Positions 1-5,086 of a DNA stretch of 5,086 nucleotides are shown here, piece by piece. The position numbers and the translations under genes are program-made. The stretch covers positions 1 to 5,086 of the forward strand of contig JAEUJR010000803.1 in NCBI GenBank assembly GCA_016793585.1, given 5' to 3'. Below the pieces are notes generated by a model. It searched no databases. It was not told the origin of the DNA and worked only from the letters and a program-made list of their open reading frames with translations. The stretch comes from Archangium sp. (GTDB lineage: Bacteria > Myxococcota > Myxococcia > Myxococcales > Myxococcaceae). Every line of letters begins with the position of its first letter. The first letter of the stretch is position 1.

Positions 1-880
1 CGCCAGTCAGGCCCGCACCAGTCAGGAGCGACGTGACTCCGCTTGCCGGAGTGACGCCCACCCAACTGGAACCATCGAAGCCGAGCACCTGGCCACTCAC
101 AGGGGAGCCAACCCCAACCGGGACCCCGCCGATGGACGTCGCATTGCCGAACCGACTGTCGTTACCCGCAGCGACCGTGCCGGCAGTCGTCCCAACGCTG
201 ACGGAGACGACTGGCGCCGTGGCTCCATTCGTCACGGTGATGGGCGCCGTTCCCGAGACGCCCGAGATGCCTCCGCCCGTGCCGCTGACCGTCGCGCACT
301 GCCAGCTCGACCCATTCCATTGCAGCACCTGGCCGGTGTTGCACCCGCTCGAGTTCACCGAGATGGCGCGCGTGGTGCCGTCGATGCTGATGCCCGGGCC
401 AGCCGTGTACCCAGCAGCGGCGGTCAGCTTGCCGTTCGAGTCGATCACCTGCGTTCCATTGACCGAGACGCTCGTCGCATCGACCGTTCCGCCCTTCACG
501 CTGCGCGCGTTGAGCGCGAACGCGACCGACCCGACCCGCTGGCGCGGCGTCATCGTGCGAAACTGCGTGTCACCCGGCGCCTGCACCGAGACCTCGAGCC
601 ACAGCGTGCCCGTGTCGAAGAGCGTCGCGGGGAACGTCGTCATGCGCCCCAGGTACGTCGAGTAGTACCCCTGCGTGATGCTGACGGCCTGGGTCTCTTC
701 CCAGAGCGACGAGCCACCGGTCTCTGTACCGAACAGACCAAACCGCATCTGCGCGTTGCCAGACTCAGGCGTTCCATCGGTCTTCACCAGTCGCCCCTGA
801 TAGCCGAGCAACTGCGGCGCCTGGGCCAGCACCACCGCGGGACACATCATCAGCACTGCCACGAAGACTCTCTTCACCAT
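1..880 (-). CDS. Secreted repetitive fibre-like surface protein (3' end beyond the window)
   Basis: The frame is open from an ATG at 878-880 to the left edge, giving 293 codons with no stop, so the C-terminus is missing. AAGGAG (887-892) lies 6 bases before the ATG and fixes the start. Residues 1-19 form a signal peptide (MVKR, a hydrophobic core, then VLA) with likely cleavage before QAPQ. Residues 22-125 resemble a secreted N-terminal domain common in environmental bacteria: LGYQGRL, a loop ending LWEETQ, a turn GYYSTYLG, then PATLFD, LWLEV and a closing MTPRQR..SVAFALNARS. From about 130 on the chain is rich in Gly, Ser, Thr and Val. It carries GPGISIDGTTRAISV, GTTAGTVAAGNDSRFG and two GQVL-(W/F)-(N/D)GSSW units, as in phage tail fibres and bacterial adhesins. 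It is the last visible gene of the operon. A surface fibre or adhesin is inferred; the exact role is unknown. Confidence 0.85.
   Translation of the reverse strand, partial: MVKRVFVAVLMMCPAVVLAQAPQLLGYQGRLVKTDGTPESGNAQMRFGLFGTETGGSSLWEETQAVSITQGYYSTYLGRMTTFPATLFDTGTLWLEVSVQAPGDTQFRTMTPRQRVGSVAFALNARSVKGGTVDATSVSVNGTQVIDSNGKLTAAAGYTAGPGISIDGTTRAISVNSSGCNTGQVLQWNGSSWQCATVSGTGGGISGVSGTAPITVTNGATAPVVSVSVGTTAGTVAAGNDSRFGNATSIGGVPVGVGSPVSGQVLGFDGSSWVGVTPASGVTSLLTGAGLTG
38..334 (-). repeat. Two GQVL-x-(W/F)-(N/D)GSSW units in the fibre-like protein
   Basis: Residues 183-200 (DNA 281-334) read GQVLQWNGSSWQCATVSG. Residues 263-281 (DNA 38-94) read GQVLGFDGSSWVGVTPASG. The two units are 80 residues apart. 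After the second unit the chain enters a Gly-rich stretch (LLTGAGLTG), so further units probably follow beyond the left edge. Such repeats are typical of elongated fibres built from recurring segments. Confidence 0.65.
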
Positions 881-910: not shown

Positions 911-1822
911 TCAGCGAACGTTCGAAACCTGACCGGGTTGATTCGTGTGGGTTCCACTCGACTGCGTCGACGGCTCCGACGGGGGCGTCGAGTCACCGAG
1001 CACCCCTTCGTTGCGATGCGTGCCGTTCGACATCGACGACGCGCCCAGCGTGCTTCCACTCCCCAGACCACCGAAAGGCGCTGCACCACCCGGCATCATC
1101 GGGTTGACGCAGGTGCCCCGAACGCAGGTACGCCCCGACGCGCAGGTGACGCCGCGGCACGCCACGTCGACGCACGTTCCCGACGCGCACGCCTGGCCCA
1201 TCGGGCACGGCGTGATGCCACAGGACTCGGGCTGACATGCCCCCGCGACGCAGACCCGCCCCATGGGGCACGAGACGCCGACACAGGGCCGCTCGGTGCA
1301 CGTCGTGCCCACACAGACCTGGGCCGAGCTGCACGTCGAATCGATGCACGTCGGCGGAAAGCACTGACCATTAAGGCAGACACTCCCACCGCTACAGTTG
1401 ACGCCTGAACACGCGACGTCGAGACACGCGCCATTCCTGCACACTGAGCCGGGAGCACACGTCACCTGGCCGCAATCACGCGTCTGACACTTTCCTTCGC
1501 TACACGTCTCGTTCGCGGCACACGTGATACCGACGCAGCTCTTCTGCTGACAGACAGAGGCGTTGGCGCAGACCTGATCCACACCGCAACTGGCCGACGA
1601 GCAGTTTCGTGGCAGGCATTGCCCCCCTGCGCAGGCCTCGGTCGAGGCGCACTTCTTGCCGCAGACGCCGCAGTTCGAGTCGTCGAGCTTCACGTCGACG
1701 CAGGTGCCCGAACAATCGGTCGCGCCCGTTCCACAGACGACGGGCGCCCCGCCATCGGTCGATACGGGTGGTGTCGGACACCCTGCGAGCGCACCGATGA
1801 GCACGAGTGAGAGTCGCTTCAT
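911..1822 (-). CDS. Cys-rich repeat lipoprotein, paralogue A
   Basis: This gene encodes 303 residues, with an ATG at 1820-1822 and GGAGG (1826-1830) 3 bases upstream. Residues 1-15 are a lipoprotein signal (MKR, a hydrophobic core, then ALAGC), so Cys15 should be lipidated. Residues 30-69 hold eight cysteines in a Stig1-like module (CxDxxxDDxNCGxCGxxC..xxC..GxC). Residues 74-238 hold eight units of C-x4-C-x5-C-x4-C-x4: seven of exactly 21 residues and a first one of 22. That gives 40 cysteines besides the lipid Cys, consistent with full pairing into disulfides outside the cytoplasm. Residues 254-303 are a Ser/Thr/Gly/Asn-rich tail with two GTHxN motifs. The gene follows its paralogue by 9 bases and precedes the fibre-like gene by 30. 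I recognise no named family for the 21-residue repeat. A structural or binding role at the cell surface is inferred. Confidence 0.9.
   Translation of the reverse strand: MKRLSLVLIGALAGCPTPPVSTDGGAPVVCGTGATDCSGTCVDVKLDDSNCGVCGKKCASTEACAGGQCLPRNCSSASCGVDQVCANASVCQQKSCVGITCAANETCSEGKCQTRDCGQVTCAPGSVCRNGACLDVACSGVNCSGGSVCLNGQCFPPTCIDSTCSSAQVCVGTTCTERPCVGVSCPMGRVCVAGACQPESCGITPCPMGQACASGTCVDVACRGVTCASGRTCVRGTCVNPMMPGGAAPFGGLGSGSTLGASSMSNGTHRNEGVLGDSTPPSEPSTQSSGTHTNQPGQVSNVR
914..1063 (-). other. Conserved 50-residue C-terminal tail of paralogue A
   Basis: Residues 254-303 have no Cys and are rich in Ser, Thr, Gly, Asn and Pro, with MSNGTHRN and SSGTHTN motifs and an end at QVSNVR. Predicted disorder is by composition only. 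The same tail closes paralogue B (DNA 1835-1984) with 40 of 50 residues identical. Confidence 0.8.
1109..1603 (-). repeat. Eight tandem 21-22-residue four-Cys units in paralogue A
   Basis: Cysteines at residues 96, 117, 138, 159, 180, 201 and 222 open seven units of exactly 21 residues (63 bases), each with the pattern C-x4-C-x5-C-x4-C-x4. A leading unit opens at residue 74 and is 22 residues long. Between the third and fourth Cys most units have a (V/A/E/R)(N/A/S/R)G(A/T/K/Q) turn. Confidence 0.9.
1616..1735 (-). other. Stig1-like Cys module of paralogue A
   Basis: Residues 30-69 contain eight cysteines and the core CVDVKLDDSNCGVCGKKC followed by CAGGQC. This matches the CxDxxxDxxNCGxCGxxC pattern of Stig1-like segments that recur in myxobacterial secreted proteins. 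The assignment rests on remembered family pattern, not on a search. Confidence 0.6.
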
Positions 1823-1831
1823 GTGCCTCCC

Positions 1832-2749
1832 TCAGCGAAGGTTCGAGATCTGTCCTGGCAGGTTCGTGTGCGTGCCGTTCGACTGTGACGGTGGCTCCGA
1901 CGGCGGGGTGGAGTCACCCAGCACGCCCTGGTTCTGATGCGTACCGTTCGACATCACCGACGCACCCAGGGTGCTGCCGCTCGAGAAGTCGCCGAACGGG
2001 CTGCCCATGGCCATGGGGTTCACGCACGCGCCACGCACGCAAACGCGGCCTGAAGGGCACGTGACGCCCTGGCAGTTCACGTCGGTACACACGCCCGACA
2101 CGCAGGCCTGCCCCATCGGGCATGGAGTCGCTCCGCACGACTCGGGCTTGCACGCTCCGGCCACGCAGACGGTCCCCATGGCGCACGAGATGCCCACGCA
2201 GGGCCGCTCGGTGCACGTCGTCATTCCGACACACACCTGGCTCGCGCTGCACGTCGCGTTCGGACACGTCGGCGGAAAACACGAACCATTCACACAGACG
2301 TTCGAGCCCTGGCACGTCACCCCTGCACACGTGACGTCGACGCAGCCGCCATTCTTGCACACGAAGCCAGCACCACAGGTCGTCGCTCCGCAGTCACGGG
2401 TGACGCACCGCCCGTCGGTGCACGTCTCATTCGCGCCGCAGGTCACCCCGACACACGCCTTCTGCTGACACACCATCGAGTTCGCGCACACCTGGTCGGT
2501 GGCACAGTTCGCCTCGCTGCAGTTCTTCGGCAGACAGCGGCCGCCGCCACACCCCTCGGTCGCGCCACACGCCTTGCCACACGCGCCGCAATTCTTGTCA
2601 TCGACGTTGGTGCTGACGCAGGCGTCACCGCACTGCGTGGTGCCCGTGCCACAGACGACCGTCGACCCCGCGTCGATGGGAAACCGGTTGATGGACTCCG
2701 CGCAGCCAAACGCTCCGACCGACACGAGCAGAACGAGGACTCGCTTCAT
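1832..2749 (-). CDS. Cys-rich repeat lipoprotein, paralogue B
   Basis: This gene encodes 305 residues. Its ATG (2747-2749) overlaps the stop codon of the OmpA-family gene as ATGA, so translation is probably coupled. GGAGG (2754-2758) sits 4 bases upstream, inside that gene. The signal MKRVLVLLVSVGAFGC is a lipoprotein signal with Cys16 at a slightly weak lipobox (AFGC). A Stig1-like eight-Cys module spans residues 33-72. Eight C-x4-C-x5-C-x4/5-C-x4 units span residues 77-242, with the one-residue-longer third gap in units 1 and 5. A 50-residue tail (256-305) closes the protein. Total cysteines are 41, the same as paralogue A, and the two align over their whole length at roughly two-thirds identity by eye. 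The tail is closer still, at 40 of 50 residues. A tandem duplication within the operon is the simplest origin. The molecular function is unknown. Confidence 0.9.
   Translation of the reverse strand: MKRVLVLLVSVGAFGCAESINRFPIDAGSTVVCGTGTTQCGDACVSTNVDDKNCGACGKACGATEGCGGGRCLPKNCSEANCATDQVCANSMVCQQKACVGVTCGANETCTDGRCVTRDCGATTCGAGFVCKNGGCVDVTCAGVTCQGSNVCVNGSCFPPTCPNATCSASQVCVGMTTCTERPCVGISCAMGTVCVAGACKPESCGATPCPMGQACVSGVCTDVNCQGVTCPSGRVCVRGACVNPMAMGSPFGDFSSGSTLGASVMSNGTHQNQGVLGDSTPPSEPPSQSNGTHTNLPGQISNLR
1835..1984 (-). other. Conserved 50-residue C-terminal tail of paralogue B
   Basis: Residues 256-305 carry MSNGTHQN, GVLGDSTPPSEP and SNGTHTN and end QISNLR. All ten differences from paralogue A are single substitutions without gaps. 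Confidence 0.8.
2024..2521 (-). repeat. Eight tandem 21-22-residue four-Cys units in paralogue B
   Basis: Units open at Cys 77, 99, 120, 141, 162, 184, 205 and 226. Unit 1 and unit 5 are 22 residues and the rest 21. The extra residue in unit 5 is one of two adjacent Thr (VGMTTC against VGTTC in paralogue A), a one-codon difference from the other copy. Confidence 0.9.
2534..2653 (-). other. Stig1-like Cys module of paralogue B
   Basis: Residues 33-72 have the same eight-Cys spacing as paralogue A, with the core NVDDKNCGACGKACGATEGC. The module lies between the lipidation site and the 21-residue repeats in both proteins. Confidence 0.6.
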
Positions 2750-4023
2750 TTGACCTCCGCGCAGGGGATGATCACGAACTCGACGCGCCGATTGTTCTCG
2801 CGGCCCTCGAGCGTTCCATTGGAGTCGATGGGCAGCGTGTCGGCGTAGCCCTTCGCCGTGAGCCGCGCCGAGTCGACGCCCGTGACGAGCAGGTAGTCGC
2901 GCACCGCGGCGGCGCGGCCTTCTGAGAGCGTCATGTTCTGCTCACGACTGCCCTTGTTGTCGGTGTGGCCCTCGACGCGCACGCAGATGCCCGCCCGGTC
3001 CTTGAGCGCCTGCGCCACCTCGTCGAGCAGCGGGTCGCTCTTCGGGAGGATCTTCGTGGTGCCGAACGCGAAGAAGATCTTCTGACCGATCTCGATCTTC
3101 TGCTCGGTGACCTTGATCTGTTTGTAGGTGGGGCAGCCCTTGTTCTCGACCTTGCCTGCGACCGTGGGGCACGCGTCGTCGGGGTCGGGCACCGAGTCGC
3201 CGTCCTGGTCGGGGCAGCCCTTCGTCTCTGCCTTGCCGGCGAGCTTCGGGCAGCCGTCTTTCGCGTCGGGCACGCCGTCGCCGTCGTCGTCGAGGTCAGG
3301 GCAGCCGTCATCGTCCTGGAAGCCGTCTTTGTCTTCCGCCTTGTCCGCGCAGCGATCGATGTCGTCTGGCACGCCGTCGCCATCGCTGTCGCCGCTCACG
3401 AGCGGTGGCGCGCTGGGCGGGCAGCCGTCGGGAGTCGCAGGGCCAGCCACCTCGGGGCACTTGTCTTCGTCGTCGACCACCCCGTCACCATCGCCATCGG
3501 GCGGCGCGGGTACGTGCAGGTACTCGAGCGACACCCCGAACGAGACGAGCGTGGCGTTGAACGACTCGAAGCCGGGCTCGGCGGCTGCCAGCGCGAACAC
3601 CTGCTGGAAGCGGCCGAACACCCCGACGAGAAAGCCCGTCGAGGTCGGCTTGAACGAGACGCCCGCCGTCACGGTGAGAGGAAAACGACCGCCGCCCGAG
3701 TTGCCGTAGTTCAACAACAGCTCGCCCCACGGAATGACCAGGTTGTGCTCGAGCGGCCGGCGAAGCCGCGCCCCCGCCCCGACGGTGAGCAGCGTTCCAT
3801 TGCCGGTGATGGGGGCGGCGCTCGTCGCGGGCAATGACAACCAACCGACCTGCGCTTCGAGATCGAGCACTGGCAAGAGCGCGAGCTCGGCCGTCACGGC
3901 GCCGCCGTACCCGACTCCAAAGTACGTGGCCTGCGGCTGACTGACAGGCACTTCGGCGCCGACGTCGAGACGCACTCCGAAGCCGGGCGCGCTGAGCACG
4001 CCTGCGACGAGCAGTGAGAGCAA
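2746..4023 (-). CDS. OmpA-family outer-membrane protein with TSP3-like calcium-binding linker
   Basis: From a TTG at 4021-4023 this gene encodes 425 residues. Domains follow, numbered in that form. Residues 1-16 are a hydrophobic signal-like start. Residues 17-171 alternate as short beta strands rich in Gly and aromatics, like a small outer-membrane barrel. Residues 176-298 hold four Asp-rich repeats (DGDGDGVVDDEDKCP..., each closing with GCP), as in thrombospondin type 3 calcium sites. Residues 309-418 form an OmpA C-terminal peptidoglycan-binding domain with EGHTDNKGS, LSEGRA and GRENNRRVEFVI. Asp355 and Arg370 match the pair that binds diaminopimelate in OmpA homologues. The frame stays open up to a GTG at 4135-4137 (463 residues). 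That start would leave 17 bases to the divergent gene, and it lacks the GGAGG (4028-4032) seen 4 bases before the TTG. The weak point of the TTG start is that its signal lacks a basic residue. Likely role: anchoring the outer membrane to the cell wall. Confidence 0.85.
   Translation of the reverse strand: MLSLLVAGVLSAPGFGVRLDVGAEVPVSQPQATYFGVGYGGAVTAELALLPVLDLEAQVGWLSLPATSAAPITGNGTLLTVGAGARLRRPLEHNLVIPWGELLLNYGNSGGGRFPLTVTAGVSFKPTSTGFLVGVFGRFQQVFALAAAEPGFESFNATLVSFGVSLEYLHVPAPPDGDGDGVVDDEDKCPEVAGPATPDGCPPSAPPLVSGDSDGDGVPDDIDRCADKAEDKDGFQDDDGCPDLDDDGDGVPDAKDGCPKLAGKAETKGCPDQDGDSVPDPDDACPTVAGKVENKGCPTYKQIKVTEQKIEIGQKIFFAFGTTKILPKSDPLLDEVAQALKDRAGICVRVEGHTDNKGSREQNMTLSEGRAAAVRDYLLVTGVDSARLTAKGYADTLPIDSNGTLEGRENNRRVEFVIIPCAEVK
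3130..3498 (-). repeat. Four Asp-rich TSP3-like calcium-binding repeats
   Basis: Four units start at DGDGDGVVDD, DSDGDGVPDD, DLDDDGDGVPD and DQDGDSVPD. Each has a mid CP or CA and closes with GCP. Two cysteines per unit probably pair. The second unit has an extra acidic stretch (AEDKDGFQDDDG). Such linkers join barrel and OmpA domains in many envelope proteins and are thought to stiffen with calcium. Confidence 0.85.
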
Positions 4024-4027
4024 CGAG

Positions 4028-4032
4028 CCTCC
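4028..4032 (-). promoter_or_regulatory. Ribosome binding site deciding the TTG start
   Basis: GGAGG lies 4 bases before the TTG at 4023. The same GGAGG with 3-4 base spacing precedes both lipoprotein genes downstream (1826-1830 and 2754-2758), so the arrangement fits local habit. No similar site precedes the GTG at 4137. Confidence 0.55.
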
Positions 4033-4051
4033 GGGAGGGAGAGACCGCGCG

Positions 4052-4057
4052 ATTGTA
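4052..4057 (-). promoter_or_regulatory. Candidate -10 box of the OmpA-lipoprotein-fibre operon
   Basis: TACAAT on the minus strand matches the sigma-70 -10 consensus at five of six bases and is one of few AT-rich hexamers here. A transcript starting about 7 bases downstream (near 4045) would have a leader of about 20 bases holding GGAGG and then the TTG at 4023. At 17-base spacing the -35 position reads CGGTTG, which is weak. The box lies inside the longer GTG-started reading frame, so it also bears on the start choice. Confidence 0.45.
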
Positions 4058-4154
4058 GAGGGCGAAGACGGCAGCAACCGAAAATTCCACCGCGCACACA
4101 CACCGCACACGTGGGACAGGGCGTTGGCGATCGTCACTGCTACGGTGCCGCGCC

Positions 4155-5086
4155 ATGCGCTCCTTGATGTTGCTCACGTCGATCGCGTTGCTGGGCTGCC
4201 CCGCCACCCATCGCTACCCGCAGCTCGTCAAACGTGAGAGCGCACCTGCGGCCGTCACCATCTTTCGCGACGTGCGGGTCTTCACCTCGACGGGCACCAC
4301 GGCGCTCGAGCATCAAGACGTGCGCGTCGACGACGGCCGCATCACCGCCATCGCGCCGACGGGCACCGACGTGACGGGAGCCCGCGTCATCGAAGGCGCG
4401 GGCAAGACGCTCATTCCCGGCTACGTCGACTTTCACGTTCACCTCACGGGCAGCCCGGCGCCGCCGTGGGCCGTCGCGTGGCCCGACGAAGCACACAACG
4501 CCCGCGCGCTGCTCGCCTCGGGCATCACCAGCGCGATGGACGCGGGCGGCGAGCTCGAGAAGCTCAAGGCGCTGTGGAAGTCGCAGGGAGAAGCGTCATG
4601 GCTGGGGCCGCGCTTCTGGTACTCGGGCCAGATCGTCTCACTCAAAGACGGCTACCCGACGTCGATGGTGAACATCCTCTACCCGTGGCCGGCGAACCTG
4701 GCGGCCGATCAGCGCTTCGCGGGGCCCATCTCGACCGAGGTCGAAGCCATCGCCGCCGTCGACTGGCGAATGCACAACGGCGCGCACCACATCAAGCTGG
4801 CCATCGCGAGCGTGCCCCTCAACGCGCAGACGATGCCGCCCGAGCTCGTGAAGGCGACGGTGACGCGCGCGCACGAGAAGGGCGCGAAAGCCGTCGCGCA
4901 CATCGACACGGCGGTGCACGCGCTGCGAGCCGCACGCGCCGGGGTCGACGCGCTCATGCACGGCATTCACCTCGGAGAGCTCAGCGCCACCGACGCCGCC
5001 GAGCTCAAGGCCGCGAACCTCGTCGTCTCGCCCACGCTCGTCGTCTTCGACCGCGCCGAGAAGCTGCTCGAGTTCCGCTTCGAGCC
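4155..5086 (+). CDS. Amidohydrolase-family lipoprotein, imidazolonepropionase-like (3' end beyond the window)
   Basis: The frame is open from an ATG at 4155-4157 to the right edge, giving 310 codons with no stop. Residues 1-15 (MRSLMLLTSIALLGC) form a lipoprotein signal with Cys15 as lipid site. Residues 35-90 are the small beta domain (IFRDVRVFTSTG, VRVDDGRITAIAP, ViEGAGKTLIPG). The metal-binding HxH is at His94 and His96 in YVDFHVHL. Further likely ligands are Lys214 (HHIKLAI, possibly carboxylated), His249 (AVAHID) and His269 (LMHGIH). The final Asp expected in this superfamily would lie beyond the window. The fold fits imidazolonepropionase- or prolidase-like amidohydrolases that hydrolyse amide or peptide bonds. 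Substrate is unknown. The lipid anchor places it in the periplasm or on the outer membrane, so nutrient or peptide processing is more likely than cytoplasmic histidine breakdown. There is no clear ribosome binding site; an ATG at 4167 is an alternative but would drop the Arg of the signal. Confidence 0.9.
   Translation, partial: MRSLMLLTSIALLGCPATHRYPQLVKRESAPAAVTIFRDVRVFTSTGTTALEHQDVRVDDGRITAIAPTGTDVTGARVIEGAGKTLIPGYVDFHVHLTGSPAPPWAVAWPDEAHNARALLASGITSAMDAGGELEKLKALWKSQGEASWLGPRFWYSGQIVSLKDGYPTSMVNILYPWPANLAADQRFAGPISTEVEAIAAVDWRMHNGAHHIKLAIASVPLNAQTMPPELVKATVTRAHEKGAKAVAHIDTAVHALRAARAGVDALMHGIHLGELSATDAAELKAANLVVSPTLVVFDRAEKLLEFRFE

Follow-up and report, generated by a model that had tools for sequence, protein, structure and literature searches.

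Two adjacent genes in the window, a stretch of 5,086 nucleotides from Archangium sp., code for Cys-rich putative lipoproteins, A and B, and from their sequences and their gene neighbours we conclude that they are probably outer-membrane adaptors, in which the rod would point towards an OmpA/TSP3 anchor and the tail would dock a phage-like, MAT-like fibre on the cell. The gene order in the window is OmpA/TSP3, B, A, and fibre. The OmpA/TSP3 gene, which encodes an OmpA-family protein with thrombospondin type 3 (TSP3) repeats, comes first in the cluster and shares 4 nt at its stop with the start of B; the start of the fibre gene is 30 nt beyond the stop of A (Table 1). A and B are both on the minus strand and, as described in the first-pass annotation, are an adjacent pair with a common layout of a lipobox-like Cys, a Stig1-like module, eight units of four Cys, and a Cys-free tail; the count of 41 Cys in each protein (1 lipobox-like, 8 Stig1-like, and 8 x 4) is also correct.

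Table 1. Features of the gene cluster in the window
Feature	Position	Strand	Evidence
OmpA/TSP3 protein gene	2746..4137	-	Pfam OmpA 80.8 bits, TSP_3 33.3 bits; true start uncertain
Cys-rich putative lipoprotein B, 305 aa, 41 Cys	1832..2749	-	ORF
Stig1-like eight-Cys module of B, residues 33-76	2522..2653	-	Pfam Stig1 17.9 bits, below cut-off of 24.1
Eight four-Cys units of B (two four-unit blocks), residues 77-246	2012..2521	-	
Cys-free tail of B, residues 247-305, two SNGTHxN motif copies	1835..2011	-	tail profile A3; internal repeat
Cys-rich putative lipoprotein A, 303 aa, 41 Cys, 66% identical to B	911..1822	-	ORF
Stig1-like eight-Cys module of A, residues 30-73	1604..1735	-	Pfam Stig1 26.1 bits, above cut-off of 24.1
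Eight four-Cys units of A (two four-unit blocks), residues 74-242	1097..1603	-	
Cys-free tail of A, residues 243-303, two-copy motif as in B	914..1096	-	tail profile A3; internal repeat
MAT-like adhesive fibre protein, N-terminal 293 aa; continues past window end	2..880	-	NCBIfam Bdello_MAT_N
MAT_N-like beta-sandwich domain of fibre, about residues 21-118; proposed tail receptor	527..820	-	

The tail is the most constrained segment of A and B. The two genes are under purifying selection with a dN/dS of about 0.20 overall, and the lowest value, 0.12, is in the tail core. The two-copy internal repeat was reached in 0 of 200 shuffles for the tail of A and in 1 of 200 for the tail of B, and the tail alone is predicted by AlphaFold2 to be disordered (pLDDT < 50 for the tail of B). 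The earlier annotation mentioned the tail just as being Cys-free; the tail, together with the OmpA/TSP3 and fibre neighbours, is the informative part.

Searching with the tail alone gave 18 tails outside the window. Of these, 14 lie immediately 5' of a fibre N terminus, one is followed by a second tail gene that is itself 5' of a fibre, and three (L095, L096, and L083) have no adjacent fibre. Among the 11 tails that were left out of model building, eight are directly 5' of a fibre, and in seven of these eight held-out cases the fibre is also picked out, at E <= 0.01 but below the cut-off, by NCBIfam MAT_N, which is an independent model. The single tail match in a separate sample of 235 genomes is a 151-aa Gly/Ala-rich lipoprotein-like ORF just ahead of a fibre N terminus (E 2.8e-32), and this is an out-of-sample success for the pairing of tail and fibre. 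There were 42 fibre N termini in 9 genomes (about 64 Mb), which makes them rare, and a tail match at E 1e-3 was absent beside 30 of the 42. Upstream inspection, which covered 20 of these 30 fibres, revealed weak HMM tails in two cases (L109 and L116), diverged two-repeat tails, recognized by eye, in five (L112, L113, L114, and L115 twice), and one doubtful tail (L120); the contig ends upstream of two (L111 and L117) and no tail was seen upstream of ten (L103-L108, L110 twice, L118, and L119). The distances between tails correlate with those between fibre N domains (Mantel r 0.46, p 0.0006, n=15, with shared ancestry left in). The stalks vary in length and kind while the tail persists, and the tail, not the rod, looks like the part that is associated with the fibre.

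It could be argued that the tail is a signal for export or assembly. It would then carry the lipoprotein, or else the fibre that is its partner, through the outer membrane, or would aid trimerisation of the fibre, and would have no part in retaining the mature fibre. As would be expected of an assembly factor too, the tail is short, is at the C terminus, is disordered when alone, and in most cases belongs to a separate gene immediately 5' of the fibre. However, a pure export signal would need no adjoining fibre gene, yet 14 of the 18 tails have one, and it would have no need of stalks of such unlike length and kind. We consider this explanation unlikely and prefer the one in which the tail docks the fibre.

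The fibre in the window matches NCBIfam Bdello_MAT_N at E 1.3e-8 with 34.8 of 60 bits, which is below the cut-off, and MAT_N was over the NCBIfam cut-off in none of the genomes of 12 relatives. The N domain of the fibre was predicted, as a single chain, with a pLDDT of about 90. In the relatives, the fibre tips over the Pfam cut-off are fibrinogen-like, glycoside-hydrolase-like, and Gly-rich, and those below it are C-type-lectin-like and H-lectin-like. The relatives have a conserved N terminus with exchangeable C-terminal adhesive tips; the tip of the window fibre is outside the window. The mosaic adhesive trimer (MAT) fibres of Bdellovibrio bacteriovorus (NF053851; PMC10769870) are similar in that the window fibre has a MAT_N-like N terminus and the relatives have swapped tips, but the window fibre is below the family cut-off and is paired with a tail-bearing lipoprotein. 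MAT fibres have been proposed to be the means by which a predatory bacterium recognises and handles prey. According to the Discussion of the paper that described them (PMC10769870), the cell-surface component to which their constant N terminus binds is still to be identified.

The rod is associated with the OmpA/TSP3 protein. In the loci named here, to which the parsing for a Stig1-like module plus 4n units was limited, OmpA/TSP3 is in the cluster in all eight that were parsed in this way. Relatives of the OmpA/TSP3 gene are in the clusters of L001, L002, L003, L033, L064, L065, and L066, with TSP_3 falling just short of the Pfam cut-off in L064 and L066. Seven of the eight loci counted went into the omp profile itself, although Pfam also finds the domains there. 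L067, which has Cys units at a contig start, may be a counterexample to this pairing because OmpA is absent within 8.3 kb. The order is OmpA, lipoprotein, lipoprotein, and fibre in L033, which is from a different Myxococcaceae genome, and lipoprotein, fibre, and OmpA in L002 and L065. If the rods were free-standing envelope or matrix proteins their neighbours would be there through operon history alone, and units similar to those of A and B do occur in unrelated myxobacterial proteins, without the tail or OmpA. On the other hand, among 17 other Cys-rich loci that served as controls, OmpA was found in 0 of 17, the tail in 0 of 17, and a fibre in 1 of 17 (L070), where it is near a Cys-rich protein carrying a different tail. 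Moreover, the associations turn up again beside unlike stalks and in other gene orders, such as that of L002 and L065, and we consider free-standing rods quite unlikely.

A Cys-rich protein beside an OmpA-domain protein is also found in the outer-membrane exchange proteins TraA/TraB of Myxococcus, and A and B could be the TraA stalk and receptor of such a cell-recognition pair with the OmpA/TSP3 protein as TraB. PMC3325183 describes a Cys-rich region in TraA and the overlap of traB with traA, and NCBIfam TraB is the top partial match of the OmpA protein. However, the score is 155 bits against a cut-off of 700, with the best stretch at residues 277-461 of the OmpA protein, and A and B are without PA14 (Pfam to E 10) and without MYXO-CTERM or TIGR04201 (NCBIfam to E 10). 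Instead they have a lipobox-like anchor and a fibre gene beside them, and a TraA/TraB-like pair is highly improbable.

The rod itself had been described as disulfide-held and under structural selection. A regular rod is supported by AlphaFold2, which predicts one beta-hairpin in every 21-residue unit, with 10-residue means of pLDDT from 61 to 90 over residues 31-240; the data do not show selection on Cys spacing alone. The spacing C-x4-C-x5-C-x4-C is strict in seven of the eight units of A and six of the eight of B but not in the rest; x5 lies between Cys 3 and 4 in unit 1 of A and of B and in unit 5 of B. Divergence of the residues between the Cys is true of neighbouring units within one protein (about 20% non-Cys identity) but not of A compared to B (66% identity overall and 62% non-Cys). 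The repeating block is four units and occurs once or twice across the proteins. Offset-4 unit similarity was greater than with permuted unit order in each of the six eight-unit proteins tested (p 0.0095-0.029), which are not independent because they are homologues; P0003, which is 97% identical to B, was excluded from this test.

The claim that the 21-residue unit is uncatalogued is supported at the curated Pfam and NCBIfam cut-offs. When full proteins were scanned, the unit was not matched above cut-off by any Pfam model, nor, among the matches with bit scores, by any NCBIfam model, the partial match of MXAN_6577-like (NF041328) over the Stig1-like module and first units being 23.0 and 24.9 of the required 100 bits for A and B. 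The Pfam matches of A and B to E 10 are Stig1 and DUF7107 only, the latter at 10.7 and 11.5 bits (cut-off 24.6). Isolated four-unit blocks, however, have weak profile similarity to DUF7107 (17 of 17 blocks, best E 7.1e-5), EB (13 of 17), Dickkopf_N (9 of 17), and DPY (6 of 17, best E 1.8e-5), the best block matches of DUF7107, EB, and DPY being given by E value and not by bits that could be set against the cut-off. Among the matches with bit scores the unit is below cut-off, DUF7107 reaching at most 19.9 bits. With similar units also present in unrelated myxobacterial proteins, we read the unit as a probable, diverged example of a common type of Cys-rich repeat. Stig1 (PF04885) is over the Pfam cut-off in the N-terminal eight-Cys module of A and below it in B and most relatives scanned; the match is limited to that module, and the units, anchor, and tail of A and B are foreign to Stig1. 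Judged by eye, the sequence before the first Cys is a hydrophobic stretch and then LAGC in A and AFGC in B, the latter not being a canonical lipobox.

We propose that each of A and B is anchored by a lipidated N-terminal Cys and that a stiff stalk, held by disulfides, is made up of the Stig1-like module and the four-unit blocks. This stalk would work with the co-encoded OmpA/TSP3 protein, which has a peptidoglycan-binding OmpA domain as well as TSP3 repeats. The tail, which is flexible, free of Cys, and equipped with two short strand-like motif copies, would then capture the N-terminal MAT_N-like beta-sandwich of the trimeric fibre that the adjoining gene encodes, and so the fibre would be held on the cell. 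Lipidation, surface location, trimerisation, and stoichiometry are presumed in this proposal, and the tail would bind the fibre directly, as the rod would OmpA/TSP3.

It is possible, and we put this forward tentatively, that the two-copy tail is a general MAT_N plug, that adaptor lipoproteins with interchangeable stalks display adhesive trimeric fibres across myxobacteria, the rod with OmpA/TSP3 being one stalk design of several, and that the surface partner still missing for the Bdellovibrio MAT fibres is a comparable peptide carried by a surface lipoprotein. If the tail is such a partner, then a short peptide and a small domain would make the question of the surface partner of MAT fibres testable. 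The tail would then also account for a set of myxobacterial lipoproteins that have unlike stalks and no name so far, and more of them could be sought by reading roughly the final 45 residues of whatever is encoded immediately 5' of a fibre gene.

The Cys-rich lipoproteins A and B are encoded on the minus strand between a gene for a protein with an OmpA domain and thrombospondin type 3 repeats (OmpA/TSP3) and a gene whose product resembles the MAT fibres of Bdellovibrio (the fibre). The predicted order of transcription is OmpA/TSP3, B, A and fibre, with 9 nt between B and A and 30 nt between A and the fibre gene. Because these gaps are short, it is likely that the four genes form one operon.

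Coordinates of genes in the window and at related loci from other genomes (L, locus; G:C, genome:contig)
Feature	Position	Strand	Remarks
Fibre gene, window	880-2	minus	incomplete, extends past window end
A	1822-911	minus	
B	2749-1832	minus	start overlapped 4 nt by OmpA/TSP3 stop
OmpA/TSP3, window	4137-2746	minus	
Amidohydrolase-family gene, window	4155-5086	plus	Pfam 46.3 bits; lipobox-like start (LLGC); divergent from cluster, treated as separate
L069, giant Cys-rich genes	4706-8605, 9302-13114		1,299 and 1,270 aa; 191 and 187 Cys
L070, fibre-like gene and 41-Cys protein	2712-3641, 4485-5489	opposite	two small genes away
L083 (G004:C8)	5414-5767		117-aa lipoprotein-like ORF
L095 (G157)	7090-8163		clear tail, Cys-rich protein
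L096 (G157)	3533-4702		clear tail, Cys-rich protein
L110 (G151:C82)	371-2070	same	two fibre N termini
L115 (G156:C34)	3285-7059	same	two fibre N termini
ORFs 5' of fibre genes (G156)			
L112	2428-3066		
L113	1932-2783		
L114	2248-2877		
L115	2873-3247, 6113-6643		

In both A (303 aa) and B (305 aa), a lipobox-like Cys is followed by an eight-Cys Stig1-like module, which exceeds the Pfam Stig1 cut-off in A and misses it in B, then by eight four-Cys units and finally by a tail that lacks Cys. Parsing confirmed the statement of the first-pass annotation that each has 41 Cys in identical order. The spacing C-x4-C-x5-C-x4-C, said to hold in all eight units, is strict in seven units of A and six of B but not in the remaining ones, and the claim that spacing is kept while residues drift is true between units within one protein but not between the genes, the products of which are 66% identical. 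The A/B dN/dS (Nei-Gojobori, custom script) was 0.41 for signal and linker, 0.23 for the Stig1-like module, 0.20 and 0.16 for the halves of the rod, 0.15 for the tail and 0.12 for the tail core, values that are only rough because dS is 1.0-1.4.

The repeating block of the rod is four units. In all six eight-unit proteins tested, unit i was closer to unit i+4 than under most permuted orders (p 0.0095-0.029), although these proteins are homologues and the tests are therefore not independent. The 13 family proteins parsed, P0003 and P0006 having been left out, comprise six with eight units, six with four and one, P0004, which breaks off at 204 residues, with six. In an alignment of 17 four-unit blocks, including one block each from L003, L064, L065 and L066, 21 columns are invariant, 16 of them being Cys. 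The regular repeating fold that had been proposed was supported by AlphaFold2, which predicted one hairpin per unit at residues 65-243 of B (11 sequences, mean pLDDT 64, <50 at residues 1-29 and 246-305); neither Foldseek nor VIA-align found a solved structural relative. The unit had also been called uncatalogued. It has no match over the curated Pfam and NCBIfam cut-offs in any full protein scanned, but isolated four-unit blocks are weakly similar to DUF7107 (17 of 17, best E 7.1e-5), EB (13/17), Dickkopf_N (9/17) and DPY (6/17, best E 1.8e-5). In this block scan bits were given for one block only, and the best DPY match may or may not exceed its own cut-off. We take the unit to be another diverged member of the EGF- or EB-type Cys repeats, which many secreted proteins of myxobacteria contain (P0011, P0012, P0014, P0018). 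The giant genes of L069, which are neighbours with nearly identical first residues, are another tandem Cys-rich pair.

The tail goes with the fibre. Genomes were searched with a tail profile, A3 (51 positions, from 14 tails), which gave 10 matches in 5 genomes of a 96-genome family sample (E <= 0.01), 17 matches, these 10 among them, in 9 genomes of a 195-genome phylum sample (E <= 0.001), and one match in a second, 235-genome sample, hence 18 tails outside the window. A fibre N terminus is the next downstream gene for 14 of the 18 (G001:C386, G002:C68, G004:C270 second gene, G004:C273, G004:C38, G004:C337, G048:C7, G054:C76, G151:C48, G151:C112, G151:C1, G156:C2, G158:C101 and G261:C18). The first gene of G004:C270 precedes another tail gene that is itself 5' of a fibre, and for three tails (G157:C388, G004:C8 and G157:C1265, whose contig stops 570 nt past the tail gene) the next gene is not a fibre. 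In 16 pairs, 7-162 nt separate the tail match from the fibre match; the fibre match of G001 has only 29.2 bits because of a break in the frame and the end of the contig at that point. Seven of the 18 tails were in the tail model, and the other 11 served as a guard against circularity: eight of these precede a fibre, and the fibre profile was built without any of those eight fibres. The NCBI MAT_N model marks the same ORF in seven of the eight (E <= 0.01, always below cut-off), the eighth genome being outside that search. Since fibre N termini number only 42 in nine genomes (~64 Mb; the profile included some of these fibres), we estimate the chance of a fibre following a random gene as ~7 in 10,000. 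In a blind test, the sole match of its sample (G261) fell on a Gly/Ala-rich ORF of 151 aa that begins with a lipobox-like sequence and is directly followed by a fibre gene (E 2.8e-32).

The converse association is weaker, as a tail match (E 1e-3) adjoins 12 of the 42 fibres. Upstream inspection of 20 of the other 30 found two weak HMM tails (L109, L116), five ORFs ending, by eye, in two strand-like repeats (L112, L113, L114, L115 twice), one doubtful tail (L120), two contig ends (L111, L117) and, in ten, no tail (L103-L108, L110 twice, L118, L119). The five ORFs, all from G156 and directly 5' of fibre genes, are mostly Ser/Gly/Thr-rich, their terminal repeats were missed by the tail profile, and they are likely to be diverged partners of the fibres. 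No fibre adjoins the tails of L095 and L096; G157 has eight fibre N-terminus matches elsewhere, one of which may be their partner. The L083 ORF ends in a two-copy tail-like motif and is followed by a 218-aa ORF and no fibre, so that this match is due to chance unless the tail also has partners other than fibres.

The halves of the tail are alike in 14 of the 19 tails compared, no more than 10 of 200 shuffles being equally similar, the near-copies P0008 and P0009 having been left out; P0031, P0032, L081, L082 and L094 failed this test, and in L097, one of the 14, the best half-pair is not the motif. The copies read approximately [QM][ST]N-x-[TS]-[HYF]-x-N-x-G, which we take to resemble the two-copy 'SSANYRL..GQP..SSANYRLxGGF' motif of other bacterial surface proteins. 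Across 15 loci, tail distances correlated with fibre N-domain distances (Mantel r 0.46, p 0.0006, shared ancestry not removed); L001 was excluded on account of its short fibre match. Unlike this test, correlations within a genome hold species history constant, and these were 0.93 in G151 (four loci, six pairs) and 0.52 in G004 (six pairs).

The N terminus of the fibre gene after A matches NCBIfam Bdello_MAT_N (E 1.3e-8) with 34.8 bits, under the cut-off of 60, and formal MAT membership therefore fails. Its first domain (~residues 21-118) is predicted to be a six-strand beta-sandwich (pLDDT ~90). Its database relatives and the fibres of related loci have a common N terminus and varied tips, which are fibrinogen-like, glycoside-hydrolase-like and Gly-rich over the Pfam cut-off and C-type-lectin-like and H-lectin-like below it. 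This variety is the mosaic logic of the Bdellovibrio MAT fibres, a constant N terminus with varied tips (PMC10769870), and the window fibre probably works like a MAT fibre despite its score. Fibre genes can occur in pairs, as in L110 and L115, where two N termini lie close by. The 41-Cys protein of L070 has a Cys-free tail quite different from the A/B kind.

The stalk that bears the tail is exchangeable. The tail is found on a Stig1-like module with four or eight units (window, L001, L002, L033, L064, L065), on other Cys-rich arrangements (L081, L092, L095, L096, L097; similar units also occur in L095 and L096, outside the parsed set), on long Cys-less stretches with a short Cys-rich end (L093, L094), on a Ser/Gly/Thr-rich stalk with a single Cys (L098), on a Gly/Ala-rich linker (L129) and on a short six-Cys ORF (L083); in L068 and L082 the start of the contig truncates the tail gene. 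An OmpA/TSP3 gene is in the cluster of all eight parsed loci with a Stig1-like module and 4n units (window, L001, L002, L003, L033, L064, L065, L066), and is present in L003 and L066 although tail and fibre are missing. The omp profile was made from seven of these eight and the Pfam scan is independent, with TSP_3 narrowly missing its cut-off in L064 and L066. No OmpA/TSP3 was found near L068, L081-L083, L092-L095, L097, L098, L109 and L129, although the sequence available at some of these loci is short. Divergent OmpA genes are present in L096 and L116, and a scan of the L096 gene found no TSP_3. In 17 other Cys-rich loci (L004-L017, L067, L069, L070), with flanks of varying length, OmpA and tail were found in 0/17 and a fibre in 1/17 (L070). 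Because the tail tracks the fibre over unlike stalks and the Stig1-like stalks with 4n units track OmpA/TSP3, genome context assigns a different partner to each half of the protein, OmpA/TSP3 to the rod and the fibre to the tail.

The most likely explanation is that the lipoprotein is an adaptor between envelope and fibre, a model in which the anatomy, context statistics and selection are observed and all contacts are inferred. The rod would be held by its lipid and OmpA/TSP3 and the tail by the fibre N domain, each motif copy perhaps contributing a strand to one of the trimer's sandwiches. Membership of TraAB fails since A and B have no match to PA14, MYXO-CTERM or TIGR04201, which are features of TraA (PMC3325183). 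No name for the unit, the tail or the pairing was found in the libraries and literature searched, in which subscription journals are thinly covered. According to PMC10769870, the constant N terminus of the Bdellovibrio MAT fibres binds a surface element that is yet to be identified. The tail-bearing lipoprotein is a candidate, in myxobacteria, for the surface partner of a MAT-type fibre.
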